The position numbers and the translations under genes are program-made. The notes beneath the pieces were generated by a model that saw nothing but the letters and a program-made list of their open reading frames with translations, did not search any database and was not told where the DNA came from. From contig VKHL01000014.1 in the NCBI GenBank assembly GCA_015146655.1, forward strand, positions 62,001 through 126,000: a stretch of 64,000 bases of DNA, given 5' to 3'. Source of the DNA: Ochromonas danica. Taxonomy: Eukaryota; Sar; Chrysophyceae; Chromulinales; Chromulinaceae. Within the stretch, counting starts at the first letter, position 1. Every line of letters starts with the position of its first letter. Shown here one piece after another: positions 10,449 through 56,257 of this stretch.

Positions 10449-13400
10449 TCATTTTCGTTTCAATGCGTTGGCCACGCTAATAAGTGATGGATTGGTGGAA
10501 GTAGAAGAATGGATAACAGCAACAGGTGCTGGAGAAATCTCTCCAACCGCTGCATTATTAGAATTTTCACGAACATCTGTCATGCTTGAAGAAGGATAAA
10601 TTCTACTCTGGCCTCGTCGATTGCTAGCTCGTGTGGATAAGGCAGCTTGTGACTGCGATGAAAATCGCTTGGTCTGTTCCATCAAGGAAGCAATATTACT
10701 GAGCATGAGGTTGAGATCTTCTTGGCCATCTCTCCTCGCAACCTTAGAGGAAGCCGAAAACCTTGTTCCTTTCCTGTCTGGAACAGAGCTTAGGTGTCTT
10801 TGATTCTGAAAAGGTACAGGTTTGCCATATGGTTGCTGAATGTTAACGGGCCCATCCTGTTGATTCATTCATCCATCATGATTGATTTGTAAGTGCACAG
10901 TGAGGGAATTGACTCCAAAGTCTAGTTGCTTACCTGAATTCCATGAGGCTTATCGAATCCTACTGGTTTAATGGAAAGCACAAAGACACGATCGCATGAA
11001 GCAAGAATAGTATCTTTGGGAGGATTGGTGAAAACAAATGAGGATTCACTTGCTGAAGGTTGGAAGCTGTCTCCTTTCTCTTTTGTCCCTCGTAACAGTC
11101 CTAAAGGAATCATTCCCTGTACGGAAAGATGTTGATACAATGCTCCATAAGTATTGCCACCTAGATTATCTGGTATAGCAATTTGATACAGACAGCTTCC
11201 TTTGATCGAATTCACTCGACTTGTGTATTGTGCACGAATGTCAGAAATGTGATCCATTGCTTTTGAAGAGATACCAGATATAGAACTTGCATGAGGAGCA
11301 TTGTTTTCTCCGTCAGAAACTTTCAGCTGATTGGTCATAATATTGGCTGCTTCAATGGCCAATTCCGCCTGTTCAGACTGATCGATTCCACTGATAAGTT
11401 CATTCACTACTCTTACTATCAATGGACTATAATAGCTCTATCAAAATCAACATTTTATTGTAAACGAATACAAAACAATTTAACACATTCATGCAATAAT
11501 TATAGAGTTTACCTGACAAATCAAAGAATCCAAAAATGAAGTTGTAAAGAGGTTTCCAGCTGCAAAAGAAAACGCAAAGCGTGGATTATCACAACAATCA
11601 TCACTATTCAATGGGATTTCAGCTTCAAGAGAATTGTCTTGAATATAGACGATATTGGACTGATTAACAACTTCCACCAGAATTTGTGCCTTCTGATTCA
11701 TTCGCTTTACCATTTGAAATGCAAATATGGCATCACAGTCGATTACAGATGCTTCTATATCTGATCGCCTGGTCTTTGTTCCGTCCGCCATAACAACTAC
11801 TTGTGCAGCACGGAAAATACCAGCGCGATATAAAGAACTCTCTTCCAAAAGAGATCCCTGCACTACCAATAACCCTTCAAAGATTGAGATTCTCTGCCAG
11901 ATATGATGAGGAATTGCATCAGGACAGATTATGACAATATAGCGGAAAGTTAGATGTTTGGCTCGTAAAGGACGGATGAAATCAAAAAGGTTACTAAGAC
12001 CTTTACCCAAAACTATCAAATGGTCGCGAAGATGAGGTACCAGATCAAATACAGAATGCTTTACAGTAACTTGTTCCAGAAGAACAGCTTGTTCAGGAGA
12101 AATATAATGATTCTTGTTAAAATGATTATCTCTTAATTGAGTTAGGATTTCTTCATAATTCTTGGAGCGAACACGATATTCTTGTACAGTTGTTCGCTTT
12201 AATAAATCCCATTTACTCATAGTATGTTTTCCAGATGCAGAAAAACTAGTCAAGAGAGCATTAGTAGAACTCTCATCACAACCACTTCGACTACTAAGGT
12301 TACTTCCAAAATGCAAAATACCTAACGTTGGTTGAGAATAGGAAGCTCGTAATAACGATCCTCTTCCATCAATAAGATTGCCAAATTTTCGACCAATCTG
12401 TCGAATATGAGAGAAATCGAATATCGTGAAATTGGAATCATCTCCAAACGATAAATCGGACGAAGCTTGATTTTTAGCAATAACAAATGCTTTAATTGAG
12501 AACTCTGTTCTTGAAGGGATCAGAAAGTCAGCAGGATTGAGAACTAAACGAGAATGTTTACTGCTACCATCTTGTAAATCTGTAATTTCTAATGCAAACA
12601 AAACTACACCAACTCGATTGTATAATTCATAGGAGAGATCACAGAAGGGAACACCTTCAAAAGATTCTGCTAGAGTGGTAGTGTAAATCTCCCAACCACA
12701 GCCATGTTCATACTCCCTATGGAAAGCATTTTACTAATGTGAGAACAACTAATGGAAGGATTGACAACGACAACTCTACAATAGAGTGCAAGCTAACCTG
12801 ATCCATTCACCATGACTGAACCTTTGTTGACTATCCTCTTCAAGACAATGTTGCTGGCGCTCAGAAAAAGAGGTAACCAAGTTCATTATTAATGTATTGG
12901 CTCCAGGGCAGACCAAAGCTCTTGCCATGACCCCCATCTTAATTTCGTTGAAGCAAACGATCACATCGTTTTCTTCGACAACTTTGGTATTACTCTTTGA
13001 TAAATGACGACGATTTTCTGGTCGAATCAATTGTGTACAGAATAGCATATCCTCTCTTTGTTGACCACTTAAGTATTTCTTAATACTTAGATTCAGTAAT
13101 ATGGACTTGGCATCCTCCTCATCTGCATTGACTGCAAATTGGTCAGTTAAGATGAAACATGCCTGCGCCTTTTCAACCTGCGCGCGCTTTAGATCTCCCT
13201 CAATCAAGGCAGATCCTTGTAAATAAATCGATACTGCAACATAGCGAGGTTGACACATCAATAAGATGGTATCTGCCGCAGGAGGTGAGGGAAAGAGAAG
13301 AACAGCACACAGATCACCATTCTCATGATCTTCATGGAAGAGCTCTTCAAACAATTGTTGCAAAGAGACAGAGGAAAAATCACCACAAATAACAATATGT

Positions 13401-14362
13401 TTGCTATTCTTTCCTTTTGGTGTGTAGGCCGCACGCATGTAAACAGTCTGTAAGTTCATTTTCTCAACAAGTTCATTCGTTACTTTGGGCACGGAAATGA
13501 TGGCAAACCCAATCATCACCATCGCAACGAATCTCCCTGGTATTGTATGCGGATAGATATCTCCATATCCAACAGTTGATATGGTAACCCATACATAATA
13601 TGTCCAATTGTGAAAGGCGAAAGGTGAGATCTCCTTCTCCAGAAATTGAACCAGAGCAGAGAAAAAGAGAATGAAAACAATGACATTCAGAAAGATCTCC
13701 GCCAAGTAACGAGTGACATTATCTTCAATATAGGCAAATAGAGCCTCAAGCTGTAATGCCCGTAAGATACGTACATTGCTGCAGGCATAGATGAGATAGA
13801 CGACATTGTCACGCACAGAGCTGGAGAGGCTCACGACAGCAGATTGGTCATGACTAAGTGTCATCAATGTGGTGACGATAATAAGAATGTCTAACAGAGA
13901 GAAGAATGATAGACAATAGTTAATCTTTCGATCAGCTAAAAACAACTTTACGATCCAATCGAAGATAAAGAAGATTGCAAAGGATAGTTCCAAGATAGAC
14001 ATCGTGTCTATAGTCTCTGAGCCTCGCAGATACGTGCACACAATGAACTCAATCGAGCTAATGACGCTAATAAAGGTGTTTAATATCGTATAAGAGATAC
14101 CCAGCCAAGAAGTTTCCAACCATTTCTTGCTGGATAAACGAAATCGTTCCCATTGCTCTAACCTACCTTCTGGCTCTTCTTTCCAGTCTTCGAATAAAGA
14201 TCGATAATGATGAAAGCTAGAATATTCTCTTAAGATGCCAAAGATAGAGGAGCCATTCTTGAAGAAAGATGGTGTCGTAGTAACTGAGGAGGAAGGCTTC
14301 TTTCTTGGAGTTTGTCGAGGTGAAGGCGGTAGAAGTGACTTCCTTGATGTGGATAGATCCAT
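10449..14362 (-). CDS. Calcium-activated (BK/Slo-type) potassium channel
   Basis: Voltage- and ligand-gated potassium channel of about 1226 residues. Exons in transcript order are 14362-12798, 12716-11513, 11437-10934 and 10856-10449, with introns of 81, 75 and 77 bases that keep frame. Six hydrophobic segments (about residues 60-300) include an S4-like helix with few arginines (NVRILRAL) and the selectivity filter TISTVGYGDIYP near residue 263. The cytoplasmic part starts with an RCK domain (KHIVICGDFSS) and a second RCK-like unit (RYIVIICPDAIPHHIWQRIS ... GLLVVQGSLLEESSLYRAG). SFLDSLICQ joined to SYYSPLIVRV across intron 2 matches the Slo tail block DSL-x-TYF-P. I find no clear acidic calcium bowl. 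The C-terminal 135 residues are low-complexity. Slo family is well supported; the activating ligand is not. Confidence 0.88.
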
Positions 14363-14539
14363 AATATTTATCCAAATCTATCACTGTATTCCACAGTCAC
14401 AGTCTATTTGATACTCTGATTCTGATTCCTTTGATAACAACAGGAGGTTTTCCGTTTCGAAAATAAGGTAATTGTATAACATTTGTGTAATACCTTAACA
14501 GTAACTGATGGTGTAATAATGAAATAAAATCACCATCCA
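14363..14539. promoter_or_regulatory. Short divergent promoter, potassium channel / DUF707-like gene
   Basis: A 177-base AT-rich gap between divergent starts; no recognised motif. A pyrimidine-rich stretch ending in TATAG just inside the plus-strand gene (14565-14582) could be a 3' splice site, so an upstream mini-exon here is possible. Confidence 0.3.
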
Positions 14540-19929: not shown

Positions 19930-20166
19930 CGAGCAACAGACAAAAGACAGACTCTAGAGAGAAAAACGACTATTTCCACGCATCGTAATAACAATTCCTG
20001 CTCTTGCTTTTGCGCGGTTTTTTAGGATAGTTAACTTAACAAGACGTGTGTGTGAAAAGGACGAAACTGTTTGTTTTGTTTTGTTTTGTTGGTCTATGAT
20101 GACATTTATCGAAGTGATGGGTTTAGTTTAGATTCATTCCTTGATTATCTATTAGAATATGGAATA
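19667..20166. promoter_or_regulatory. Divergent promoter, DYRK kinase / giant repeat protein
   Basis: A 500-base gap holding both promoters. It contains an (CAA)11 tract at 19895-19927, a TTTTG-rich stretch near 20069-20091 and TTAACTTAAC at 20031-20040, which resembles the motif seen before other genes here. No stable protein ORF is seen on either strand. Confidence 0.4.
19895..19927 (+). repeat. (CAA)11 microsatellite
   Basis: Eleven perfect CAA units followed by one CAC, in the DYRK/giant-gene divergent promoter. Outside the coding exons as drawn. Confidence 0.95.
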
Positions 20167-23100
20167 ATGATAAAAGGGATGATAAAGTGGTTTCTTGTTC
20201 GCCTATTTCATGTTTTGGTCATTCTGGTATTACAACAGGGTTATGTTGTGACTAGCTTGCAGGTATCACCTGCTTTGATCGATGCTGCCTATAATGCCAG
20301 CGATGGCAACCTTCTCCTATCTTTTAGCAGTTTAATCAATGCTGAGACCTTAAATATCACTGGGATATCTCTTCAAAGTACACAAAACCTAACAACCAAC
20401 TCAACAGGAACTGCTGTAGTTCTGCAGGGAGCCTTTAATAGTTTGAAAGCTCAAGGAAATACGACTACTCTATTAATTATCCTCAAGTCACTAGATTATG
20501 CAAGAGTTTGCTTATCAAAGAGTCTTTGTAGAAGTTTGAATACCACCTTTGTTTCCATAGAGGCTGGCTGTGTGCTCTCTGATTTGGGTGTACCCAATAT
20601 AGGGACGTCCAGACAAAATGCAACCACGGCATCCTCCTTCTTTCCTGACAACATTCCACCGTTCTTTGCTTATTACAGCTTTAATATGGATATTGGATTA
20701 TTAAATCTCACGTTTTCGGAGCCAATCGAAGAATCAACTTTCCAATTGCATGGTCTGACTTTTCAACGTGAGGCCAATATGAAAGTCGCCCCGCAACATC
20801 GAAAGCAACAATGTAATTTGGAAAATAGTGGATCAATGGTTCAGCAGCTCTCTAACTACAATCGAACCATCGTTGCTAGTCTAGGTTACGAGAATTTGAA
20901 TTGTATCAAAGCACAGATGGGGCTTTGCATCTCGCCAGAATCATGTTTTCTTTCCGCATATGCATCGATCGTGAATGATACAAATGGTAACCCATTCAGC
21001 ACGATTGGATTCGACTATTATCGTGGAGTGCAACCAATGAAATATGTGCCTGACTGGAACAGTCCCTACTTACTTTCTTGGAACTTCGATCAGAGAAATG
21101 GAATGATCAGCTTGGTCTTCTCAGAAACAGTTGATGTTGCTTTCTTGAATTATTCCTCGATTATATTGACAAATGGAATCAATGGTACTACCATGCGAGT
21201 GGTGAATCCGGAACTTCTTACCTTTGCTCCCTCCAATGTGGTCCAGTTTATTCTGACTCCACAGCAATTTTATCTCATGCAGTATCACCCTAGCTTCTTC
21301 AAGACTCCAAATACCTCTTACATTATTCTTGAGCAAGGAATGGTAGTTGATACATCTGCTTATCAGCATAAATATTCATCAACCTCAGCAACATTCGAAG
21401 ATCCTATGCGAGTGACTTTCTTCCGAGTGGACGATGTTCCTCCCGAGCTTAAAAGTTTTGAGCTATATTCAGCAAATGGAACGATATATTTCTATTTTTC
21501 TGAGACCGTAAATATTTCTTCGTTTCGTGTGCGATTCATGACCTTGCAGTCAACACAAAATGCTCAGCTTGGGACTGAAATCGTTAACTTCAATTCAAAC
21601 GATGTTTCATCGGTAACTAGCTCCCCAACAGGTTATGAAGTGCAACTTGTGTTGTCAAGTTCTGGAAGGGCAAAGATACAATCATGCATTTATTTAGGGA
21701 GAAGTGCTCAATATACTTTTGTGTCCATTTTGCGACGCTTTGTCTCGGACACTGCTGCAATTCCTAATGCAATAGTTGAGATCAGTAGCTCGAATGCATT
21801 GGAAGCTGCTTTGGTTGTAACAGATGCCACAGCACCTCATTTGGAGTATTGGGCTATCAATATGACCGACAGTGTCTTGACATTGAGATTTTCGAAGCCT
21901 TTAGACTTGACATCTTTCCAGGCTTCAGTTATTACCCTTTCTTCCGATGCTACGATCCCCGTGCTTAGTACTACAAGGACTTATCCTTTGGAAGGCAGCT
22001 TAATCTTAGACAGCGTTGATTCATCGTTGACTGTGCATATCCAACTTTCCAGTTCTGGACAGATTTACTTGAAGAGTTTTACTGATTTCTGTTCATCCAC
22101 AGAGAATTGCTTTATCTCATTTCCGAGCACTTTGGCTGTGAGTGCAGAGTTACACAATATCGAAGGGATTAATGCTGAGCCTGTCAAGGATGAAAGTTTG
22201 GTGAAATGCAATGCTGTTTATGCGGACGATATCTCCCCAGAGCTGTTGTCCTTTGCCATAAATATGAACTCACCTTCACTTTCTATGAACTTTTCCAAGC
22301 CCATTCAATCATTAACGTCTAATTTGACGGCAATTGAGCTTCTGTCAAGCAGTCTAACTTCGAATAACTATTCCTCGGTTGTGCTTTCTGCATATTCCGA
22401 TGTTGACCAAGGAATTGTCAATCAACTTCAAGTTCGACTTAGTGGGCAAGATTATTCAAGAATTATTGATGCTGCACCGCTTTGCACGGCGCTTTCAAAT
22501 TGCAAGTTACGACTTTATTCTAACTTTGCATCGGACATCTTTGGTAATGTTGTGAGAACTGTCACGATTCCTTTGAATGCAAGCAGTTTTATCCCAGATC
22601 AAACCTCCCCGCATCTAATCTCAGTTTACTTGGATCCTTTAAAACAAGTAAATCTGACTTTCATTTTCTCCGAGCCTGTCAATATTTCCTCTGTCAATGG
22701 CTCTTGCCTGGCTTTGGCTTCAACATCAGGAGCCACGTTCCCACTCGATCAAGCTTCGATTCTCACGTTGGATAACATGCCAACCACTCAACTTACCCTA
22801 TCTTTGTCGGCATTGAAGTCGAGATTGACTTTGAGAAATGTAGCAACACAACAATCAAATACTTTTGGCTATGTAGCCATTGGCGGTTGTTTTCGAGATG
22901 CTTCTCCCCAGAAGAACGTTATGGCCAGCATGTCACGTCTTCAAGCTTTAAGAGATGGTTTGCGTTTACTGTCCTTTCGTTTGGACCTCATGAATGGATT
23001 TTTGGATTTGGTATTGACCATACCTATTTCTGTTTCGACAGTTCGCCCGACTTCAATCTCAGTGAAGGCTCCATTCGCTAAGTACTCTCTCACAAGTATA

Positions 23101-26100
23101 ACGTCCTATAGTAGTTTGTCAGGAAAAGAGTTGTTGCGTCTTTATCTGTCGCAGAAGGATATTATTCAATTAAAGCGAATCTCTATCAGCAGTAGAAAAT
23201 CTGTTAGACTGTCTGTTGGAGCAAATGCATTGACCGATATCAATGGTAAAATACTTTCTTCAGACCAAACTGTTTCTTGCTCTCAGCTTGTGTTGGATTA
23301 TAATCCGCCTCAGGTGGTTGCATTCAGCTTGGATCTTGCTGTTGGTGATCTCACTTTAACATTTGATCGTGACATTGTTTTGTCGACATTTGCATCCACT
23401 TCCTCTGTATCGCTCTCTACAACTAATGTTTCTTCGAATCTTAGTAAAGTTATTGAGCTAAAACATCTTACTCTTCCCTCTGGCCAGGCTGAAGTAACGT
23501 CCACCGTTAGGCTGGAACTAAACAGTAATTCCCCCTTAACAGATCGAGAGCTTGTTTTGATTGCTTATCCTTTAGGATCTTCTGTTCATGATACATATCT
23601 ATATATTGAAAAAGGGTTCTTTTATGGAAATTCGATTCCTGCTCAACCTTCTGCTGAAGTTGATTACCTACAGGCTGCTACAGTAACTGCAGATTACATC
23701 CCCCCTCAGCTGACTGGTTTCAGTGTTGACCTTGCGAATCGTCTCCTATTTCTCAATTTTTCAGAAGCGGTCAACACGTCTAGCTTTGATATGTCCTATT
23801 TTACAGTTCTTGCAGATCCTGATGATTCCTTATCGGCCCATGTGAGCTTATCAACGGATTCAATTGTACTCAACGCTTCATCTTATGGACCGGAAGCCAC
23901 AGTTCTGTTAGGTGATGTTGATGTGAATGCAATGATGTCATTGGCTCCAAACTTGTCAACTGCAGCTGTAAATTGTTATTTGGCATGTAAAATTGGCGCA
24001 TTTTATGATTTAGGTCATCCCGCCAATCCGAATGTAGAGATTGCGTATCGATACGGTTTGCAGGTCAAGAAGTTCTATAACGATACTACCCCACCCCAAT
24101 TAGTTGGATATAATATTTCTATTCCTGATCAAACTCTGGACTTGATTTTCAATGAGATTGTCAGCTGTAAGACCTTAGATACTCAGCAGATTCTATTTCA
24201 GCCGACTCGTTTCTTGGGATTGTATACTGACCGTCAATACATACGATTGAGCAATTCATCTTATTGCGCCAATACTATTAATTACAGCCTGCGTTTACAT
24301 GTGCGGATTAGCTATGGTGACATTCTTCGCATAAAGAGCACAGTTGGTGTTCTCAAATCCATGAACACAACGTATCTCCGGCTTTTAGCTGGGGCAGTGA
24401 AAGATGCTTTTGGTAATGCCAATGAAGAAGTTATGGACGGCTACACATTAGCACCCACCGCATATATTCCAGATACAACTTCACCCATATTGCTTGCCTA
24501 CTCTGTCACTACCACACCATCTTTAGTCCTCTTTTTCAATGAACCAATGGATGCATCAAGTCTTCAAATAACGAGAATACACTTTCAAAATGCACAAAGC
24601 AATCCAACCCGCCAATATCCTCTGATTGAAAGCAGATTATTTCGTCATGATCGTTTGTTGATGAGATTGGAGATCTACTTCAACAGAGACTATTATCGCA
24701 TTACTGCTGATTCAGCGGTGCTCGGTAATGCTACATTTACATATCTGGCTTGGTTTCAAGACACTATTAAAGATATGGCAGGAAATGATATATTGCCCAT
24801 GGTAAATGGTCGTCTTCCAATGCGTGTGGGACCATCCTTGTGGGCTTGGGATCTTGACTTGGAAGCAGGTTGTATTTTTCTGGAGTTTACGGAGAGTGTT
24901 CAATCTGACTTCTCTCCAAAGGGTATTGCTATTCAAACCCAAGAGAATATTACTTCATCTTCTCATTATGATCGTAGAGTATTGTCCACAACTACTTCTC
25001 CTATTACTCTCTCCAGTACTCCTGGTGGTAGTGCTTTGGTTAAGTTGGTGTTAAATTCTGTGGATCTCTATATTTTAAAAGAGATGGCAGGGAATTCATC
25101 GGCATTATTTATGACCATGGCAGAGGGAACTATTATGGCGAATAGTCCTTACAATCTCATGACCAATCTGACAAACAATGCTATCGAAGATTCCTCTGCA
25201 CTGATCATACGCTATCTTTACGAGGATTATTCTCCTCCAACTTGCTTATCGTTTACATTGGATCTGAATCAGGGGCAGTTAATTCTACTTTTAGACGAAC
25301 CTGTTGTTTTGAATAGTGTCGATCTCTCCAAATTTACGCTCTTTTCAAGCTTTAATGGTAGTTTCATCACTTTATCAGCGGGCGACAGTAAAGCCATCAC
25401 GCTAACAAATTACACAAGTCTAGTAATAACGTTAGCTACAGAGGCGTTAAACGAAGTTAAGGTGGCAGTCTGGAGAGGAGGATTGTTGAATAGATTGACC
25501 TTATTAAAAGGGGCGATGAAGGACATTGCTGGTAACCTTTTGGTTGAATATGATGCAGAAAATCCTGTGTCCATAGGTACTTTCATCATGGATTCATCTT
25601 CACCAAAAATCACTTCGTTTGAAGTTGACTTGTCCACTTATCAATTGACTGTAATCTTTGATGAAGTAGTAGATATGAGGAGTTTATCGGCCACTTCATT
25701 TATATTGCTTAATAATGCCTCAGTGAGCACTTCATCAGAACAATTACAACTTACGAACTATACTCTTCTTGAGGCGGTGAATAATGAAATCAATGCTATA
25801 ACCTTGGACTTGGGATTCCTTCGTGTTGATCAGTTCGCGTTGGAGGCATTGGATAATTCATTCAATGCATTGAATGACTCCTTTGTGAAGGTGATCAATG
25901 TGAGCGATATTTTTGGTAATGCTCTTGTCAATGGTTCGCAAATAGCACAAGCCACTAGTTATGTTGGAAAACAAACATTGGTGAATTTAGAAGGATTTGA
26001 TCTCATATCAGTCTCTGCCAATGTGTTAGAAGCAGTGTTATACTTCAGCAATCTCATGACACCTTCTAATTTCCATTGCTCAGATTGGATTCTACGCTCT

Positions 26101-29100
26101 CAACCACTTGCTTCTGGTTCGGTGGATGTGGTGACATTTAGTGATAGTGATTGCACTTTACAAACAACTGTTTCTAGTAGAAGTATAGCATTTCGATTTA
26201 CAGCAACAAAGATTGCAGGTACTACCATCAATCAACAGCAAAGCACTACTTATATTAATACTGTATCATCCACTCAGAGTGAAGATGTTTATGGTAATAC
26301 GGTAGCCTCTATTACAGCAACAAAATCTATTCAAGTTGGCCCTCGAGCATTGAGAGCTTCTTTGGATATGCAATCAGGTATTCTATTGATCATGTTCTCC
26401 AAGGAAATTGATATTTCCAGTCTCAGTAGTGTTTCTGCTCTTGGCATCTATTCCTCAAGTGGTAATGGCTTGTATTATTATTTAACCAATGGAGTTATGG
26501 TTGCTGGTTATGGAAGTAGTACTGTTTATCAAGATAGTGTTGCTTGGATTGTGTTAGATCAAACCAATTTGAATAATATCAAATTATTGGATGTTGGAGT
26601 GGGGAAGAGTTATGTATTGATCACAACAAATTCTATTCAAGATAGCAATGGCTTGACTGTCCAATCTCAAACAACAAGTAATCCATTGTATATACAAAGA
26701 TTTATTGTTGATCAAGTTAAACCATTAATAAGGAATGTAACTTTAAATATGGGCCAGGAGAAGTTATATATTGAGGTGAGAACTCGTTTGTCATGTTTGA
26801 CTTGTTCTGTTGAAATTATTACAAGGTGCTTCTTTTTTAATGTTAATAGTTTAATGAGCCTGTGCGGACAAGTACTTTCAATGCTGATCATATTACTTTC
26901 CAGTCTTCTCCAAATATCACTGCCTCTGGTGTTCTATCCTATCAATTAACAGGAGGCCAAGTATCCTTATCCCTGACTTTGTTGACACTTACTTTGGAAC
27001 AGACCGATGCTGCTGTCTTGAAAATGACTTATGGACTCTTGGATGGGAAAAGTACTTCCTACTTTAGTCTGATCTATGGTGCTGTGGCGGATTACGCGGG
27101 TAACTATCTGTCGGCCATTTCCTCTACAGCAGCTCGGCAAGTCGATCAATATGTAAGAGATGAAGTCTCTCCTCAATTGGAGCTCTTTACTCTTGATCTA
27201 AGCCAACCAACAGCTCGGATTCGTTTACAATTTTCTGAACCAATCAATATAACTGCTGTTAATCTAACCTCTATTGTGATACAAAGTCGTTATACAAGTA
27301 CAGATGGTGTATTCCATCGTCTTCGAGGAGGAACTACTCGTCATCCTTCTTCCACTAAGTTAGGTGATGTAATCATGGAGATTGATATCCTGGAGGAGGA
27401 TTTTCTTGCTATGAAGCTTATCCCTGGATTAATTCGTAATAAGCAAAGCAGTTATCTAGTCTATGGAGATGATTTAGCAAAAGATATGAATGGTAATGCT
27501 GTTGTTGACTATCCTGATGGAGCTGCCAAGAGTTGTGATGTCTATATTGCTGATTTGACCTCTCCTCAAGTTCTGCAAGTTTCTTTTAATGCCAATAATG
27601 ATGAAATTGCCATTGTGTTAGACGAACCTGTTGTACTTGACTCTGTGGATGTCACAGGACTCAATATTATTCCATTTCGTTATCCAAATAATTCCTTTGT
27701 CTCACAGAATCAAATTGTTCTAACTTCTTCATCCAAAGTCCTAGCACAGGGAAATAGTGAATTATCAACAACTATGACTATTCAAATGAGTGAATATGAT
27801 ACTAGTCGAATGAAATCATTAACAAATCTGTTTGCACTGGAAGCAAAGATCTATTTTGCTTTTAAATCTTCATTTGCAACAGATTTCTCAGGGAATTATT
27901 TACAACGTGTTCCATCTACTGATGCCTTGCTTTGTAGCTCTTACACAGCTGATACAACTTCACCATATGTAACATCTTATTCTCTGAATATGAATAGTGG
28001 AATCATTCAGTTGACATTATCTGAAGCAGTCAATATGAATGCATTGAATTTAAGTGAGATTGATATGCAAAATCTACCAATGAAGAGATTTGGTCAATAT
28101 GTTCTGTTATCTGATGTTGTTGTTTATCTGGATTACACAGTCAATCAGACCATATTGTCTTTCAATATTTCGGAAGAGACGATACTTGAGATGAAAGTTA
28201 ATAGCATTGGAACAACCTTGACAACAAGTTATCTTTCTTGGACAGCTAATTTTGCTGTAGATACCGCTGGGAATCCCTTGGTTCCGGCTTATGATGCCAG
28301 TGTGCGAGGTGGGTAGCGTACATCATCGTCTCTTCTTGACAGAATTGTTTGTTTAATCTGTTGTTGTTTTAGGTGGTTACCCTAGAGCACCCGATATCTT
28401 CCAGAGAGACACAATCTCGCCAGTTCTATCCCGATGGTTCATTGATCGTGATTTGATTGTGCTTCATCTGTTCTTTTCCGAACCTGTTATAGTCAAGAAT
28501 ATGTCCGCTATTCTCCTTCACGGAGAAACAACTCTTGGTGATCGCTATACCTATCTTGTTTATCCCTCTCAAAGTAATACGATAGCCAACTATTCTATTT
28601 ACGATACCAAAGTCTCCATTAACTTTGCCAACAATTGTCCCATGACACCTTATTACTATGACATTGACCCTCAGCCGAGCTGTCAAAGCAATGCTCCCTC
28701 TATTTATACATTGCTTCTGGATAACTCTACTTCGTGGGCATTATCCTTCTCTGATGGCGGAAACTCAGTTGTTGACTATGCTAACCCTGCCAACTCTCTT
28801 GTCTTAACAAAACAAATGATGGAGGGAGCTCCAGGTGAGTCTTAAGCCCTTACAAATGGAGTGTATTTGAGTACGTACTAAAACCCTTATATCATGTTAT
28901 TGAGTAGATTGCTCCAATTGTTCCATGGGTCAGTATGTCATCCAAGCTTGTTCCTCTTCCAGTGATCGAGTTTGCTCTCCGTGCTCAACTTGCTCCACTT
29001 ATAACCACTTCGAGCTGTCTCCTTGTTCTACTCAACAAGATACTGTTTGTGCAGGTATGATTTTCATAAAAATCGCTTCTATGAGAATTTTACTAATAAT

Positions 29101-29530
29101 AATATTCATCTACCTTGTTTTAGCATGCAAACATTGTCCTTTTGGGACTTTCATCCAGAAAAGTTGTCAACAAGATCAAGACACGCAGTGTGCGCCTTGT
29201 TCTTCTTGCAACGCCATGGAGTATATTTCAAAGCCTTGCGCTTTAGGCAAAGATACAATGTGTGAATCGTGTCAGAGATGCGACTTCGATGATGACCATT
29301 TTGCCCGCGAACAATGCGTTCCACAGCCCGAGTATTTCCGCTGGGCAGACATTAACTGTTGCTGGAAGAACAACAAAAGGGTGAGGAATCATCTGATCGA
29401 ATGTTATAAGCTTGACAACTTACTTTCGTGTTTATTTGCTGTATAGGTTCTTTGTGAGAATTTGCTCAACTTCGCCAATCCAGCTCTCATTCGGACAATT
29501 GATATTGCGGGCACTGACTCGAAGAACTGA
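20167..29530 (+). CDS. Giant secreted adhesin-like protein: about 22 beta-repeat domains plus TNFR-like cysteine repeats
   Basis: About 3005 residues in six exons: 20167-26775, 26850-28308, 28373-28834, 28908-29054, 29124-29380, 29447-29530, with introns of 64-74 bases (frame kept at each junction). A signal peptide (FLVRLFHVLVILVLQQGYV) is followed by about 22 diverged units of 110-130 residues. The consensus is D-x-T-x-P at the unit start, then LDxxxGxLxLxFSEPVNxSSF, a middle LxSS or LQS strand, a DxxxIK block, and a closing D-x-x-GN. This pattern resembles SwmB-like and bacterial Ig-like surface repeats. Three to four cysteine-rich units follow (DCSNCSMGQYV, CAACKHCPFGTF, CAPCSSC, CESCQRC) of TNF-receptor type. 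Many N-glycosylation sequons are visible. I see no C-terminal membrane helix or anchor. Likely cell-surface or scale/mastigoneme material; that role is inference. The first ATG after the in-frame region is 20167; 20182 is an alternative. Confidence 0.85.
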
Positions 29531-34503: not shown

Positions 34504-37500
34504 ATGATGCAAATTTTATTGTTGTTTACTACTGTGTCCTTGATTTCGGTGCATATTGGGGATGGATTTGGTGCTCAATCTTTGCGCCATATTGCACAAA
34601 CAATCCGAACAAAAGATCAATCAGCAGTTAAAAAACTATTAATGCCTTCAATGCTGAGAATGGTTGCAACTGAGAAGCAAGACCTTTCTGTGGGCGGTAT
34701 GTTTACCAACTCCTCTCCTGAGACTAAGAGAGTGGTCCCAACCAATATGGAAGGAAAGACAAAGTTCAAGATTGTCTACGTGGTTCTTGAATCGCAGTAT
34801 CAATCCGCGTTGACCAAGGCTTGTAATTCGATCAACTCCGGCAAGGAAGGGGTTGCCGTCGAAGCTGTTGGCTACTTGCTTGAAGAACTTCGCAATCCAT
34901 TGGTTTTTGAGCAATTCAAGCAGGACGTTGGCGATGCCAATATTTTTATTGGATCTCTTATCTTTGTCCAAGAACTCGCCGACAAGGTAATGTTTTATGA
35001 TGGATGCACTACTATTTCATGTTATTGACGATGGTGCGTTGCAGGTGGTTGAAGTTCTTACCCCTAACAGAGACCGCCTCGATGCTGTTCTTATTTTCCC
35101 CTCCATGCCCGAAGTCATGAGGTTGAATAAAGTTGGATCCTTCACCATGGCTAATCTGGGTCAAAGCAAGTCCGTTATCGGTGAGTTCATGAAGAAAAAG
35201 AAGAAGGAAAGCGGATCTTCCTTTGAAGAGGGTATGTTAAAGCTTCTTCGTACGCTCCCCAAGGTTTTAAAATACTTGCCAAGCGATAAGGCCCGTGACG
35301 CGCGCTCTTTCATGATGTCTTTCCAATACTGGTTGGGAGGATCTCCAGATAACCTTCGCAGTATGTTGCTGATGCTTGCAAAAGAGTTCGTTGGCGGATC
35401 TTCAATCTCCGAAGGTGCTATCTCAGAACCTGTGTTAATTCCCGATAAGGGAATATGGCACCCTCTAGCCGAGCGAGTGTTCGAGAAGGTGGAAGACTAC
35501 AATGAATGGTATAATACTGTGCATGCGCCAGCGGCCGGTATTGACACCAAGAATGCTGTTACCGTTGGAATTATTTTACAAAAATCTCATATCAACACTA
35601 AAGATGAAGCTCACTATGTCGCTATGATTTCTGAGTTAGAGGCCCGCGGTGCTCGCGTTGTCTGCATCTATTCTGGAGGATTGGATTTCTCTGGTCCTGT
35701 GGATGAATATTTCTACACAGATGGAGCTGCTGTTGTAGATTCTGTTATCAATTTGACGGGATTTGCTTTGGTCGGTGGCCCTGCTTCACAGGATCATCCT
35801 AAGGCCGTTGAAACCTTGAAGCGCCTTGACAGACCCTATATCTGCGCCGTTCCTCTTGTATTCCAATCATTTGAGGAGTGGCAAAACAGCGAGCTTGGTT
35901 TACATCCAATCCAAGTTGCCCTTCAAGTCTCTCTCCCAGAAATTGATGGTGCCATAGAGCCAATTATCTATGCTGGCCGCGAAGGAGCTACTGGACGTTC
36001 TGTTCCTTTATCAGATCGCATTGAACTTCTAGCTAACAGAGCTCTCAAATGGGCGACATTGAGCAAGAAGAAGAATGCCGATAAGAAGCTCTCGATCACC
36101 GTATTCAGTTTCCCTCCCGATAAGGGTAATGTTGGAACTGCAGCATATCTGGATGTTTTCAATTCCATCTTTGCTGTCATGCAAGAAATGAAGAAGCAGG
36201 GATACGATGTTGGCGAGTTGCCCAGCACTTCCGAAGATTTGATGAAGAGTATCCTCAACGATGTTAATGCGCAATTGTCGTCGCCAGATTTGAATGTTGC
36301 CCACCGAATGAGTGTTTCCGAGTACGAAACTCTCTGTCCATATGTAAAGGATTTGGAACCAAACTGGGGACCAGCTCCTGGTCACTTGAACTCTGACGGT
36401 AAAGATCTGTTGGTTTATGGTAAGGTCTTCGGCAATGTCTTCATTGGCGTGCAGCCTTCTTTTGGATACGAAGGCGACCCGATGCGTTTGCTGTTCTCCA
36501 AGTCCGCTTCTCCTCATCATGGATTTGCTGCGTATTACACTTATGTGGAAAAGGTCTTCAAAGCAGACGCTGTGCTTCACTTCGGTACTCATGGGTCCTT
36601 AGAATTCATGCCTGGAAAGCAGGTGGGCATGTCCGGTACTTGTTATCCTGATCGATTGATATCGCAGGTTCCAAACATTTACTACTACGCTGCTAATAAT
36701 CCTTCGGAAGCTACTATAGCAAAGCGCCGATCTTATGCTGCTACTATTTCTTACCTCACACCTCCGGCCGAGAATGCTGGATTGTACAAGGGGTTGAAGG
36801 ATTTGGCAGAGCTTGTTAAATCATATCAGGGATTACGTGATAACTCTCAGCGTGGGTCGGCTATTGTTAACTCTATTGTGTCTTCTGCCAGAACTTGCAA
36901 TCTTGATAAGGATATTGCTGACCTCCCCTCTGAGACTGATGATGCCAAGAACCTCACTCAAGATCAACGAGATACAGTTGTCGGTAAAGTTTACCAGCGA
37001 TTAATGGAAATTGAGTCTCGTCTATTACCTTGTGGTCTGCATACTATTGGTGTTCCTCCTTCTGCTGAAGAAGCGATCGCTACATTGGTGAATATTGCTG
37101 GTATCGACCGTCCGGAGGATAATATTAAAGCACTTCCTAGAGTAATTGCTGACTCTCTTGGTCGTAATATTGAAGATTTGTACCGATCTGCCAATGCTGG
37201 CAATCTTGATGATGTAGCTTTGTTGCAGAGGATCACTGAAGCCAGCCGTGCTGCTGTGCGTGGAATGGTTATGCGCTGCACTGATAGCAATGGCAGAGTG
37301 ACTGAAGTCTCTCCATTGATGAAGACTGGAGCAAATTTCTTTAACGCATTCACTGGAGGTTCTCCTCAGAAGAAGGCTCTGGCTGATGCTGGCTTTGATA
37401 AAGTGCAAGACGACGACTTGCGTCCTCTTTTCGATTATCTGGAGTCTTGTCTAAAACAGATTGTTGCAGACAACGAAGTTGGCAGCTTGATTAGTGCGCT

Positions 37501-38749
37501 AAATGGTCATTTCATTACTCCTGGTCCTGGCGGTGATCCTATTCGTAACCCTGATGTTTTGCCCACGGGCAAGAATATGCATGGTTTGGATCCTCAATCT
37601 ATCCCAACCACTGCTGCCGTGGATGTTGCAAGGGTTGTTGCTGATCGTCTTCTAGAGCGTATGAAGCTGGATACTGGCTCTTATCCTGAAACCATTGCCT
37701 TCACGCTCTGGGGTACTGACAATATCAAGACCTATGGTGAATCGTTGGCTCAGGTGCTCATGCTTGTTGGAGTTCGTCCTGTACCTGATTCGTTGGGTCG
37801 GGTCAACAAGCTTGAACTCATTCCTCTTGAGGAACTTGGACGTCCTCGCGTAGATGTTGTTGTTACATGCTCTGGTGTATTCAGAGATTTATTCATCAAT
37901 CAGATGAACCTGCTTGACAGAGCCGTCAAAATGGCAGCCGAGGCCGATGAACCCGAAAATATGAACTTTGTTCGCAAGCATGCTATTCAACAGGCAAAGG
38001 AATTCAGCATCTCGCTCAGAGATGCTGCCACTAGAGTGTTCTCGAATGCTGCAGGTTCTTACTCTGCTAACGTCGGCTTGACTCTTGAAAATGGCGGCTG
38101 GGAGAACGAGAAGCAGCTGCAAGATCAGTTCATCAACCGCAAAGGTTATGCATTTAACGCTGATAAGCCAGGCCAAATGGACTTGCAAACCGACATCTTC
38201 AAGTCCTCCTTGAAGAAGGTGGATCTCACTTTCCAGAACTTGGATTCCTCGGAGATCTCTCTGACTGATGTCAGTCATTACTTTGATTCGGATCCTACAA
38301 AGGTAGTCAGCTCTCTTCGTGACGACAAAAAGAAGCCCAAGGCCTTCATTGCTGATACTACCACCGCTAATGCCCAAGTGCGTAGTCTCTCCGAAACTCT
38401 TCGTCTTGATGCCCGCACCAAGCTCCTTAACCCAAAGTTCTATGAGGGAATGCTCAACTCTGGTTATGAAGGAGCTCGCGAGATCACTAAACGCCTAAAG
38501 AACACTATGGGTTGGTCAGCTACTTCTGGGGAAGTTGACAACTTTATCTATGAAGACGCTAATGATACATTTATCAAAGACGAGGCCATGCGCAACCGAA
38601 TGCTTGAGACGAATCCTAATGCCTTTAGAGACATGGTGACCACTTTCCTCGAGGCCAATGGTCGCGGCTACTGGGACACTTCTGATGAAAATCTTGAACT
38701 CCTTCAAGAGCTTTACCAAGAGGTCGAAGATCGTATCGAAGGAGTTTAA
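34504..38749 (+). CDS. chlH: Magnesium-protoporphyrin IX chelatase subunit H
   Basis: Porphyrin-binding catalytic subunit of magnesium chelatase, which inserts magnesium into protoporphyrin IX with ChlI and ChlD in the plastid; the committing step of chlorophyll synthesis. Exons 34504-34986 and 35045-38749 (58-base intron) encode 1395 residues, the usual length. Family blocks are in order: [118 protein letters not shown] and the late [18 protein letters not shown]. CobN is excluded by these blocks. The N-terminus [21 protein letters not shown] is a signal peptide followed by FGAQS and a Ser/Thr/basic stretch, so it resembles the ASAFAP-type import signal of secondary plastids. The intron joins ELADK to VVEVL. 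Confidence 0.97.
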
Positions 38750-52181: not shown

Positions 52182-55100
52182 TCAGCCTTCATACCATGTG
52201 ATGTAAAATGGATCTGGAGAAGTGTTAAAATATCTCTCATCATCGTCTCCATATCTTCCTGTTTGTGTATTCCTTTCTTTCTTTTCATACTTTCGGGCAA
52301 AGGCCAGAGCCCAAGCACTATATTTACCTCTCAAGCTGTCGCGAGCACTCACACGCAATTCAAAAAGGCGACGTGCTACAAAGAAATTTCCAGCCTTCAC
52401 TGCAATCATTGCTGCTGTTTCGCCAATCGGATTTGTCTGTTCGTAGCGAATTCTCTTGTCATTGACGACCAAATCCACCATCTCAACAACTCCATAAGCA
52501 GCAATGCAATGCAACGAAGAGTTGCCTGTGATATCCACAGGTAACGTGGGATCATAACCCTTTTTTAGGAAATGCGTCAACGCCTTGATGTTATGCATTC
52601 GAATAATCCAAGCTACTGCATTTAGATCAAGAAACAAAACATCATTTAAGCGGACAATTTGATATGTATCCGCAGCTGATGCGCTCTGAGAGCGAACAGC
52701 AGCTGCTGAAGCCGATGATCGCAAACGAATCTTATGACTTTGAGATACAGTTGCACTCTCAGTATTTTTGGCGAAAGTAGCTGCAGCAGAGGCAACGAAC
52801 TGCTCATCCGTTAAATCACCTTCTGGAGCAATCACTTCAAGAATACCACAACGTAGAAGGTGTAGCATCATCTTGAGAGATCCATCATCAAAGCGAATAC
52901 TGCTAACAACTAAAACAAATTAAGCACAACAATTAGCAAAGAATTAGCAAGCAAATAACAGTGACCGCATTGAGCATCAGTACTTACAAAGTCTCCAAGC
53001 ATCTAAAGGAGAAATAATAGCCGGAATAATACTCTTGAAAAGTGTCATAGCACATTCTTGAAGGGCTACATCGCCTGGTTCACTGGAAGGATCCGAAGAA
53101 ATCTGAGGAGAGCCTGTGGCGGGATTGGGAAGTCTCAACATTTCCTCTGGTGTGCGTCCATACTCTGTATAGAGTGTACAACCAGCTTTGAGCAAAGCAA
53201 CAACAACTGCACATTCCTGAGCCAATCTAACAACTTCTTCATCTTTATCCTTTCGAGCAGCAGGAGACGCCAGACCATTTATTGACATATACTCGCTACA
53301 TAATGGCCTCCTAGTGGATAAGATGGTCTGTTTAGGATGGAATATATGCCACAAACAACTGCGCTCTGATTCATCGATAATCAGTGCATCAGCGCCCAAT
53401 CGCAGGTATGATAAAATAAGCTTCTCGTGGTAATTACTACATGCCAATGAAAGAGGTGTCATTCCTTGTTTGTTTTGAATGTTCAAAACCTCCGGGAAAA
53501 TCTCTGCAGCCAATAAATCAACATTGATTTCTGTGCCATCTTTGGCTGCGAGATGGAAAGGTGTATCACCCTCACTGTCTGCCGCAATGAGTAATGCTTT
53601 CGTGACACGACAAGAACCTGCTGTTGGATGGGATAATAGATGAGCTATAAACTCGGAGGCATTTTGTCCATGCAGCGCAGCATAGTGCATGCAATTTCGT
53701 CCTCGGCTATCGACCAAAGAAAAGTCAGCTCCTCTTTGCAAGAGCATATTAGCTACATCAATGTCACCGCGCGAACTAGCCGCCAAAGCCGTCGTCAAGC
53801 CATCTTCTTCCTGCTGCCAATCCAGCTCGAAGCCAGACTCTAACACTCGATGAAGGCAGAAAATATTCCCAGACAACACAAGCTGCATAGTTTTACTGAT
53901 GTCCTGAGGCGACCAACTAATTTCTTCGCTTTCATTCTCCGCATTGTGGCCGTCTAAACGAGATTGACGTTTCGATAAACCACTAGACCCAGCAGCGCTG
54001 ACAATACCGTCCATCAATTCCAAAATTTCTGACTGACCTGATAATGCCGCTAATAAGAGACAATCTTTTCCATCTCCATCAGGTGCTTGAATAGAAGAGA
54101 GACGGGTTTGTTCAGACATATACGTGTGGAATTCGGGATCCAAGCCCAGAATCCATTGCACGATCTGCAAGGAGGACGATGAAGCCTTGTGGAGGGGACT
54201 TTGACCAAGTTCATCCACTCCTTCAATTTTAGCTTTAAATTTAGCCGTAAGGAGCTTAAACCCTTCGACATGACCTATCTCGCAGATAGCATGCACTGCT
54301 GTCATTCCAGCTTGACTAGGGGTATTAACATCAAACCCTTGCAATAGTAGCGCTTGCAACATGGTGAGATCAGCTATCGCTGCATTAGCAGCGGCTGTTA
54401 CGAGCAAGAATCCAATATCTTCCTGTTCCAACAATAATATTGGTCCATCGACTGTAGATGATTCTGTTTTCTTATTGACATCCACTGCGGCAGGAGGAGG
54501 TAAGGCTTCTCCCTCAACAACGCTTTCAGTGTTTTCACTGGTAAGCGGAGCATTGCCCTCTTCTTCTGCTTTACTTGTATCCGTTTGTAGAGCTGTATCA
54601 ACAGGTTCAGGAGTCGCCACTTCGCTGGCTTTGTAAAATGAGAGAAGGTATTGAAAGGCAGGTAAATGATTGGCCTTGGCAGCGACCATTATTGCAGTCA
54701 ATCCTTCATTATTACGATGATTAATATCAAAACCCCATAGAATGCATTTGCGCAACAGATCAACGTTGCCGTAAGCAGCAGCAATCGTCAACAGGGTATC
54801 TCCATCAGCATTGGTATCTGTGACTTGTAGCGACTCGCCACCCATTAAGCCTTTGAAAATATCCTCAACACCAACCGTATTGCCCTCTCGAGCTTGTAAA
54901 TAAATATCGGCGCTATCAAGTAGAGCTCGATTTTCAGCCTGCATTTGTGCTGCCAATTTAGCCTTTTCGTTCTCTTCTTGTAAACGCTTCTCTTCTGCCA
55001 GACGATCTCGAACAATTCGGCGTCTCTTGCCCGTGTTGACTCTAGCCAAGAACTTTCGAATTAAACATTGTATGCACGTAACCCAAGTGAATATCAGTAC

Positions 55101-56257
55101 ATGCAACCGACGCAAGCGGATACGAGCAACTCTTCGAATAGACAAGAAGCGTCGAACCGCCTTTTGCATCATCAATGCTCCACGATTTGTTTTGCGAAGC
55201 TGCATAATGTGTTTAATATGATTTGCCATCCTGTGCGAATACTTGGCACGATACCAACTTTGGATAATACGAGCAGCAAGAACGTACAGTCGATATCTTC
55301 TACGCCAAACTTTTCGTCGACCAAACATGCCTCGAAGCGCAGCTTGAATTTTGATGACTGACAGTCGATATAAAATGATTCGCCGTTTTTCAATTAGCGC
55401 CTTAACACGACCTCGAGCAGATATTCCTCTTGCACGTGCTTGGATTACCACCGCGGCCTGGACTCGTTTTAATTGCTTGCGATCATATTTGAGACGACGT
55501 AAGCATTTTCGACTCAAAAGGCACCGGAAAGCAGTTTGGATGAGCGTTGCACAAAACTTCCGTAATGCTTGTCTTTCTTTTGTGTACTGAGCTAAACCCA
55601 TTGTCGCATAACCACGATGATTGAGGAAAGAACGAATATTTGCCCGTATCATGGAATTCGTCGCTAAATAATGCCTGATTTCTCCAAAATTCTTTCTAAC
55701 ATAGTAGCCTCGGTATATAGCTTGAATCTTAGTGGTAGCATCAAGCTCAAGTTTTGAGCGGACGAACCGTGTGACATTGAGCTTGGCCATGAACTCCTTC
55801 TTCTCTTCATGAAGCATTTGATTCATCTTCTTAGTTTTCTTCACTACATCTACTGACAAACCAATGTCATAAGGACTATTCCCTAATAAATCCTTTTGTG
55901 CCAGTTTAATACTTGGTGGTTTTAATCTAGATGGATAAACAGATGAGAAAGACAAAAGGATAACCCAAACAAAGAATATAGCATGACCTACCTTTTCACC
56001 TCTAGAGGCTGGATATGAATATCTCTCATCTTTCCTTCTTTAGTTATCGTACTTGTAGTAATGACAGATATGACATCACAGTTAGTTGTTCGATAAGTCC
56101 ATACTAATGCCTCAGATGTGCGTGTGGCACATTGAGCAAAGTTGACAATATGGTTTTGTTGTTCAATTGCCTTTTGCCTAAAATATTCATTTCTATCTGT
56201 AATTAAATTATGTGTGAAGTCATATTCAGGAGAAACTATAGTATCCATTGTATCCAT
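52182..56257 (-). CDS. Large IQ-motif and ankyrin-repeat protein
   Basis: About 1310 residues in three exons: 56257-55992, 55926-52988 and 52909-52182 (introns 65 and 78 bases). At least six IQ-type helices (about residues 130-330; for example TKIQAIYRGYYVRKNFGE, TLIQTAFRCLLSRKCLRRL, VVIQARARGISARGRVKAL, KIQAALRGMFGRRKVWRRR) are followed by a Glu/Lys helix and about nine ankyrin repeats (about residues 410-980; e.g. DTLLTIAAAYGNVDLLRKCI, GLTAIMVAAKANHLPAFQYL, NCMHYAALHGQN, DTPFHLAAKDG), with two more near the end (NSSLHCIAAYGVVEMVDLVV, GETAAMIAVKAGNFFVARRL). Calmodulin binding by the IQ part and protein binding by the ankyrin part are inferred; such proteins are common in cilia. An in-frame ATG at 56377 would add 40 residues. 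Confidence 0.82.

Follow-up and report, generated by a model that had tools for sequence, protein, structure and literature searches.

The locus at positions 20167-29530 of the window, i.e. of the whole stretch of 64,000 nucleotides that was analysed, raises the question of whether a single giant secreted repeat protein is encoded there and, if so, what such a protein could be used for. The window lies on contig C14 of an assembly of 31.19 Mb (337 contigs). A gene with six exons and five GT-AG introns of 64-74 nt was modelled on the forward strand, with a spliced product of 3005 residues (Table 1). Its first frame runs from stop to stop over 20056-26949, with 20167 as the first ATG, and the TGA stop codon ends at 29530; the extent given to the gene by an earlier, sequence-only reading is borne out by this ATG, this TGA and the spliced frame. 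The same reading had described a 6.6 kb first exon without an intron and a clustering of the later introns in the last quarter. Indeed, exon 1 is intronless over 6609 bp and five out of five introns fall within the last 27% of the coding sequence. A division of the locus into several genes was considered and rejected on these sequence features, since the frame, the splice sites and the register of the repeat units continue unbroken through the exon joins, which argues for one gene.

Table 1. Predicted features of the gene, with positions in the window
Feature	Position	Strand	Basis
Signal peptide, residues 1-30	20167..20256	+	hydropathy maximum at residues 4-22; putative cleavage site placed by eye
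Exon 1 after the signal peptide: Ig-like units u01-u17 and start of u18, no intron	20257..26775	+	frame and unit borders; u16 unsupported in leave-one-out
Intron 1, 74 nt, GT-AG, phase 0, inside u18	26776..26849	+	
Exon 2: remainder of u18, u19, u20 and most of u21	26850..28308	+	u19 and u20-u21 modelled
Intron 2, 64 nt, phase 1, 11 residues ahead of u22	28309..28372	+	
Exon 3, phase 1-1: end of u21 and complete u22	28373..28834	+	u22 14.5 bits in leave-one-out
Intron 3, 73 nt, phase 1, at the border of u22 and the cysteine block	28835..28907	+	
Exon 4, phase 1-1: TNFR-like cysteine modules 1-2	28908..29054	+	TNFR_c6, cysteine spacing, both genome-search matches
Intron 4, 69 nt, phase 1, separating cysteine modules	29055..29123	+	
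Exon 5: further TNFR-like cysteine modules and start of the tail	29124..29380	+	Pfam on the spliced part, cysteine spacing
Intron 5, 66 nt, phase 0	29381..29446	+	
Exon 6: C-terminal tail lacking any strongly hydrophobic stretch, and stop codon	29447..29530	+	hydropathy

Most of the product consists of 22 in-register units of 114-142 residues each, which follow one another without gaps over residues 31-2842 when the borders are set by eye on the D-x-x-x-P motif. The number of about 22 proposed earlier is thus correct, and the units are slightly longer than the 110-130 residues then stated. The most constant positions are the D (17/22 units) and the P (20/22) of the start, the F of FSEP (18/22) and the D-x-x-G-N end (D 17/22, G 17/22, N 18/22). 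Each unit and 200 shuffles of it were scored against a profile of the other 21 units (leave-one-out). Twenty of the 22 units score 26.6-71.9 bits, above all of their own 200 shuffles, and u22 reaches 14.5 bits against 9.3 for its best shuffle; u16 scores 5.5 bits, below its best shuffle (11.9), and is accepted by position and length only. Pairwise identity averages 18.5% over the 231 pairs and is 27.5% in the best pair. A recent duplication of units was also considered and rejected, since neighbouring units resemble each other no more than expected by chance: 402 of 2000 random orders attain the observed mean.

Basic residues at the N-terminus are followed by a hydrophobic stretch, which resembles a signal peptide. 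The signal peptide and the anchor were judged by Kyte-Doolittle hydropathy alone: of the 12 top-ranking windows of 19 residues, 11 begin within residues 1-16 (best value 2.07), the remaining one (1.55, residues 941-959) lies within u08, and none of these 12 indicates a hydrophobic stretch near the C-terminus. This agrees with the signal peptide and the lack of a visible membrane anchor in the sequence-only reading, and its proposal of one secreted giant repeat protein is likewise upheld, as a prediction, by the 3005-residue frame, the signal peptide and the 22 units. A missed anchor exon or an alternative 3' end is possible; the next downstream open frame, on the opposite strand, extends to 29722, which leaves little room for such an exon.

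The fold of the units was predicted with AlphaFold2. For u19, the alignment comprised 20 units, i.e. all except u18, which is cut by intron 1, and u22, which lies in exon 3; in the unit alignments A2 and A4, rows starting at GTG or TTG begin with M instead of V or L, and u21 ends at the exon end. The model is an Ig-like beta sandwich composed of strands and one short helix (pLDDT 90.7, pTM 0.84), in keeping with the fold that had been anticipated for the unit. Its nearest solved fold is that of the bacterial S-layer protein SbsC, which takes ranks 1, 2 and 5 in a Foldseek search of the PDB with probability 1.00 and TM 0.51-0.54 (2ra1, E 3.2e-3; 4uic, E 1.1e-2; 4uj6, E 2.7e-2), none of the 1193 matches reaching E 1e-3. 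Non-surface proteins, namely the TssM deubiquitinase, an esterase and alpha-2-macroglobulin, have TM values (0.46-0.51) similar to those of SbsC, and the best 50 of the 1193 matches are mostly antibody domains (TM 0.2-0.35). In a viral fold library, u19 is matched best by a protein of a Synechococcus phage (E 4.8e-3, none at 1e-3), followed lower down by Ig-like and SbsA-Ig phage proteins (E 0.075 and 0.15). Furthermore, in a model of u20-u21 built from nine alignment rows (pLDDT 81.9, pTM 0.74), the order of strands and helix occurs twice. Nearly all of its best 50 Foldseek matches are antibody chains (E at least 2e-6, TM 0.18-0.27, rmsd at least 11), SbsC being absent among these 50; they loosely support a tandem Ig-like topology.

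The closest Pfam family is Big_5 (PF13205), whose best match, to the first 40 residues of u12, reaches 22.6 bits against a curated cut-off of 23.6 and is therefore below threshold. Exon 2 scores 15.4 bits with Big_5, 2 of 20 units match it at E ≤ 1, and a whole-genome search gave 0 matches. By predicted fold and by this near miss, the units may be described as Big_5-like Ig domains, without being members by the curated rule. A resemblance of the repeat unit to SwmB-type repeats had been proposed in the sequence-only reading. Membership of an SwmB-type family is not supported, given the Big_5 score and an NCBIfam search of the repeat that returned 0 families at E ≤ 10 from a library that may lack an SwmB model. 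PHROGs gave 0 matches. Several other hits were taken as chance: two viral spike chains (E 0.46 and 0.50) in a PDB profile search whose alignment had one unit out of phase, FlgD_tudor in Pfam (E 0.031), and single-unit matches to Nepo_coat and Enas.

Relatives were searched for within and outside the genome. Exon 1 has three genome matches at E ≤ 0.01 and exon 2 eight at E ≤ 10, all of them in their own gene. Outside homologues were sought with exon 2 in three collections: genome_contigs gave 30 pattern hits of which 0 were confirmed, in a scan that finds close relatives only, viral_contigs gave five pattern hits (0 confirmed) and phages 0 matches at E ≤ 1. As no homologue was found in these searches outside the gene itself, conservation cannot be used as evidence. 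The genome contains other giant frames, which were compared with the repeat: no repeat-unit match at E ≤ 10 is seen in the frame of 7562 aa on contig C226, nor in the 3111 aa compared out of a 3671-aa frame on contig C43, and over all frames of the five stretches examined the best unit score is 8.0 bits, in a short frame. The C226 frame has one Ephrin_rec_like match, and segments towards its end look hydrophobic by eye; the C43 frame (C43:129214-140841) has two Ephrin_rec_like matches, and another two lie in a second frame some 10 kb further along.

The intron phases bear on the origin of this architecture. Phase 1 applies to introns 2, 3 and 4, each close to or exactly at a module border, and phase 0 to introns 1 and 5, so that exons 3 and 4 are symmetrical 1-1 exons holding whole modules, a known exon-shuffling pattern in animals. 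Phase-1 introns at module borders suggest exon shuffling here as well, and the structure fits an intronless array amplified in tandem, to which 3' modules would have been added by shuffling; this is read from one gene with no orthologues. Alternatively, the Ig array could come from bacteria and have been joined later to eukaryotic TNFR exons, an origin compatible with each of the functional readings below. Acquisition from bacteria would explain the long intronless exon, and it agrees with the bacterial nature of the nearest fold (SbsC) and of the near-threshold Big_5 matches, as well as with introns that are all in the 3' part, including the three phase-1 introns just described. This origin is nevertheless unlikely: the genome_contigs scan with exon 2, sensitive to close relatives only, confirmed no bacterial homologue, and intronless long frames occur elsewhere in the genome, as on C226 and C43.

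The array is followed by a C-terminal tail with 22 cysteines. In the spliced C-terminal part, TNFR_c6 (PF00020) matches four stretches with 52.7 bits against a cut-off of 29.4 (E 5.5e-14), and the TNFR-like nature assigned earlier to this block is therefore genuine. The first 17 cysteines are spaced 3-10-8-3-3-11-8-3-3-10-8-3-3-10-8-3-3, and the pattern is lost thereafter. A TNFR_c6 genome search yielded 18 candidates, of which two pass E ≤ 0.01; these two lie in exon 4 of the gene itself. Exon 5 was missed by this search, so single modules escape it and the family may also occur elsewhere in the genome.

Metazoan receptors of the TNFR superfamily, other than secreted decoys, have a transmembrane segment and, in the cytosol, a death or TRAF-binding part. 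Neither feature was found: the product has no hydrophobic stretch near its C-terminus among its top hydropathy windows, and no death or TRAF-binding domain in Pfam at E ≤ 1. The block could still bind a ligand, the protein being a soluble TNFR-like trap or receptor, as the nearest PDB sequence to it is decoy receptor 3 (TNFRSF6B/DcR3, two distinct sequences), the sole molecule at E ≤ 1e-3. Such a role is very improbable, however, because this match is short (29 residues, E 8.7e-4), neither a death or TRAF-binding domain nor an anchor is present, and an Ig stalk of 2800 residues would be unnecessary for it.

The signal peptide, 57 NxS/T sequons in the 3005 residues, the Ig-like array and the cysteine block point to a predicted extracellular location. 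On this basis, the protein is probably a secreted structural component of the cell surface or of an extracellular coat, possibly adhesive also, in which an Ig rod would be combined with a cysteine block for docking or pairing. The signal peptide would direct entry into the ER. As an Ig-like module is about 4 nm long, the 22 sandwiches would form a long rod of roughly 80-90 nm. By analogy with the Chlamydomonas mastigoneme protein MST1, the TNFR-type block could be a disulfide ladder that binds a partner or joins rods pairwise into a filament or coat. The best guess, with no claim of homology, is a division of labour as in MST1, the cysteine block making the contacts and the Ig domains lying outside. 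A rod of this kind would suit many coats and matrices. An overlapping explanation is an adhesin or recognition protein, in which the Ig array would project a distal N-terminal binding unit and the cysteine block would hold the array in the coat. The bacterial giant adhesin SiiE, with 53 BIg domains, is likewise built as a long Ig-like array (PMC5466336); no lectin or other binding domain was detected in Pfam at E ≤ 1, and we regard this explanation as unlikely.

The genomic context was also considered. A magnesium chelatase subunit H is encoded in the window in one frame (34991-38749, forward strand), matching residues 109-1350 of the 1351-residue ChlH, and such a neighbour indicates a phototroph's nucleus. 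There are 47 light-harvesting complex (LHC) matches in the genome, and one LHC examined starts with a signal-peptide-like leader, which would be as in secondary plastids. These features and the cilium genes given below suggest a ciliated, photosynthetic eukaryote, probably an ochrophyte, as the host. Four LHC matches of equal score are arranged in tandem, 2407 bases apart, at C224:8673-16382. Two distinct rbcL genes, 488 and 491 long with 430 identical residues, are carried by the AT-rich, plastid-like contigs C193 and C289, whose initial 9 kb have a GC content of 25.7% and 30.8%, and both are apparently of the red type (form ID). As the two genes differ, plastids of two algae may be present in the assembly, and conclusions from plastid sequences call for caution. 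Elsewhere in the window, two adjacent frames on the reverse strand (11489-14377) encode a BK/Slo-type calcium-activated potassium channel (Slo-like_RCK, BK_channel_a, Ion_trans_2), and a large reverse-strand frame (52977-56039) encodes ankyrin repeats and an IQ motif; an ankyrin frame at 52182-52919 may belong to the same gene.

The sequence-only reading had proposed a eukaryotic surface or mastigoneme protein. Its first part, a secreted surface protein, is favoured here; the second, a mastigoneme role, is possible and unsupported, no EGF match having been found. As a flagellar-hair subunit, the protein would be a counterpart of MST1, with the Ig array outside and the cysteine block in the filament core. 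Its parts come in the order seen in MST1, and a cilium is indicated by genome matches to IFT46 and, twice, to Radial_spoke_3. PKD_channel was also matched weakly, by four of seven candidates at 23.6-29.9 bits (cut-off, 22.4 bits); this would agree with a hair role, and these candidates may be other ion channels. A signal peptide without a transmembrane domain, here by hydropathy only, is shared with the Phytophthora mastigoneme proteins, i.e. PnMas1 and two others. However, there is no proline-rich tail and no proline run after the cysteine block, exons 1 and 2 have no PDB sequence match at E ≤ 1 in a copy from which MST1 may be missing, and no EGF domain was found in Pfam at E ≤ 1, in contrast with the EGF-like domains of Phytophthora hair proteins. 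Sig proteins contain EGF-like domains too. In PMC3879662 the Sig proteins are assigned to mastigonemes, with Sig1 named as the Ectocarpus hair protein. Furthermore, according to PMC11015965, the Ig-like domains of MST1 hardly contribute to the filament, and among MST-like proteins such domains are reported only in C. reinhardtii and C. incerta, which makes them a weaker mark of mastigonemes. Many other surface roles fit equally, and a hair subunit is thus a rather improbable assignment. An equally speculative proposal is a polymerising surface filament of a red-plastid alga, in which the plan of MST1 would have been reached independently, an S-layer-type Ig array being combined with TNFR modules via phase-1 shuffling; the odds are well against it.

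In summary, the best reading is a secreted surface or matrix rod whose plan is nearest to that of MST1, by analogy and not by homology. Each part is known in kind, and it is the combination that is unusual. No description of Ig-like repeats joined to TNFR-like modules was found in the literature searched, part of which was little informative; the sequence-only reading had likewise been unable to assign the combination to a named family. TNFR-type cysteine modules have been studied mainly in animals. A clear TNFR_c6 block with S-layer-like Ig modules in a photosynthetic microbe would be an independent domain combination outside animals. In plants, looser TNFR-type modules occur in CRINKLY4 kinases, of which the algal relatives keep 0 or 2 of seven cysteines (PMC4617170).

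Among known systems, the bacterial SbsC and the SbsA-type Ig domains of Big_5 resemble the units as Ig-like sandwiches and best Foldseek matches, but the gene described here is eukaryotic, with introns, scores below the Big_5 cut-off and has no wall-binding Pfam domain at E ≤ 1. SwmB of marine Synechococcus, a giant surface protein (PMC3342319), is comparable in being giant and at the surface, the latter by prediction in the present case. Metazoan TNFRSF6B shares TNFR_c6 modules without a membrane anchor, and differs from the present protein, which has an Ig array, no known ligand and only the short match given above. The three Phytophthora mastigoneme proteins have a signal peptide, no transmembrane domain and 3-4 EGF-like domains, PnMas1 being of 64 kDa (PMC12223298), whereas the protein described here has no EGF match. 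Finally, MST1 is described in PMC11015965 as having nine tandem Ig-like domains, a hydroxyproline helix and, after the Ig-like domains, a growth-factor-receptor cysteine-rich domain of 678 residues and 26 disulfides. This last domain makes the dimer and most filament contacts, and the Ig-like domains decorate the exterior. The likeness is one of architecture only: both have N-terminal tandem Ig-like domains, then a cysteine-rich domain, and are extracellular (here by prediction). Unlike this green-algal protein, the present one has 22 Ig units, and no sequence match between them was found; their common plan raises the question of whether unrelated algae use the same Ig-plus-cysteine arrangement for surface filaments.
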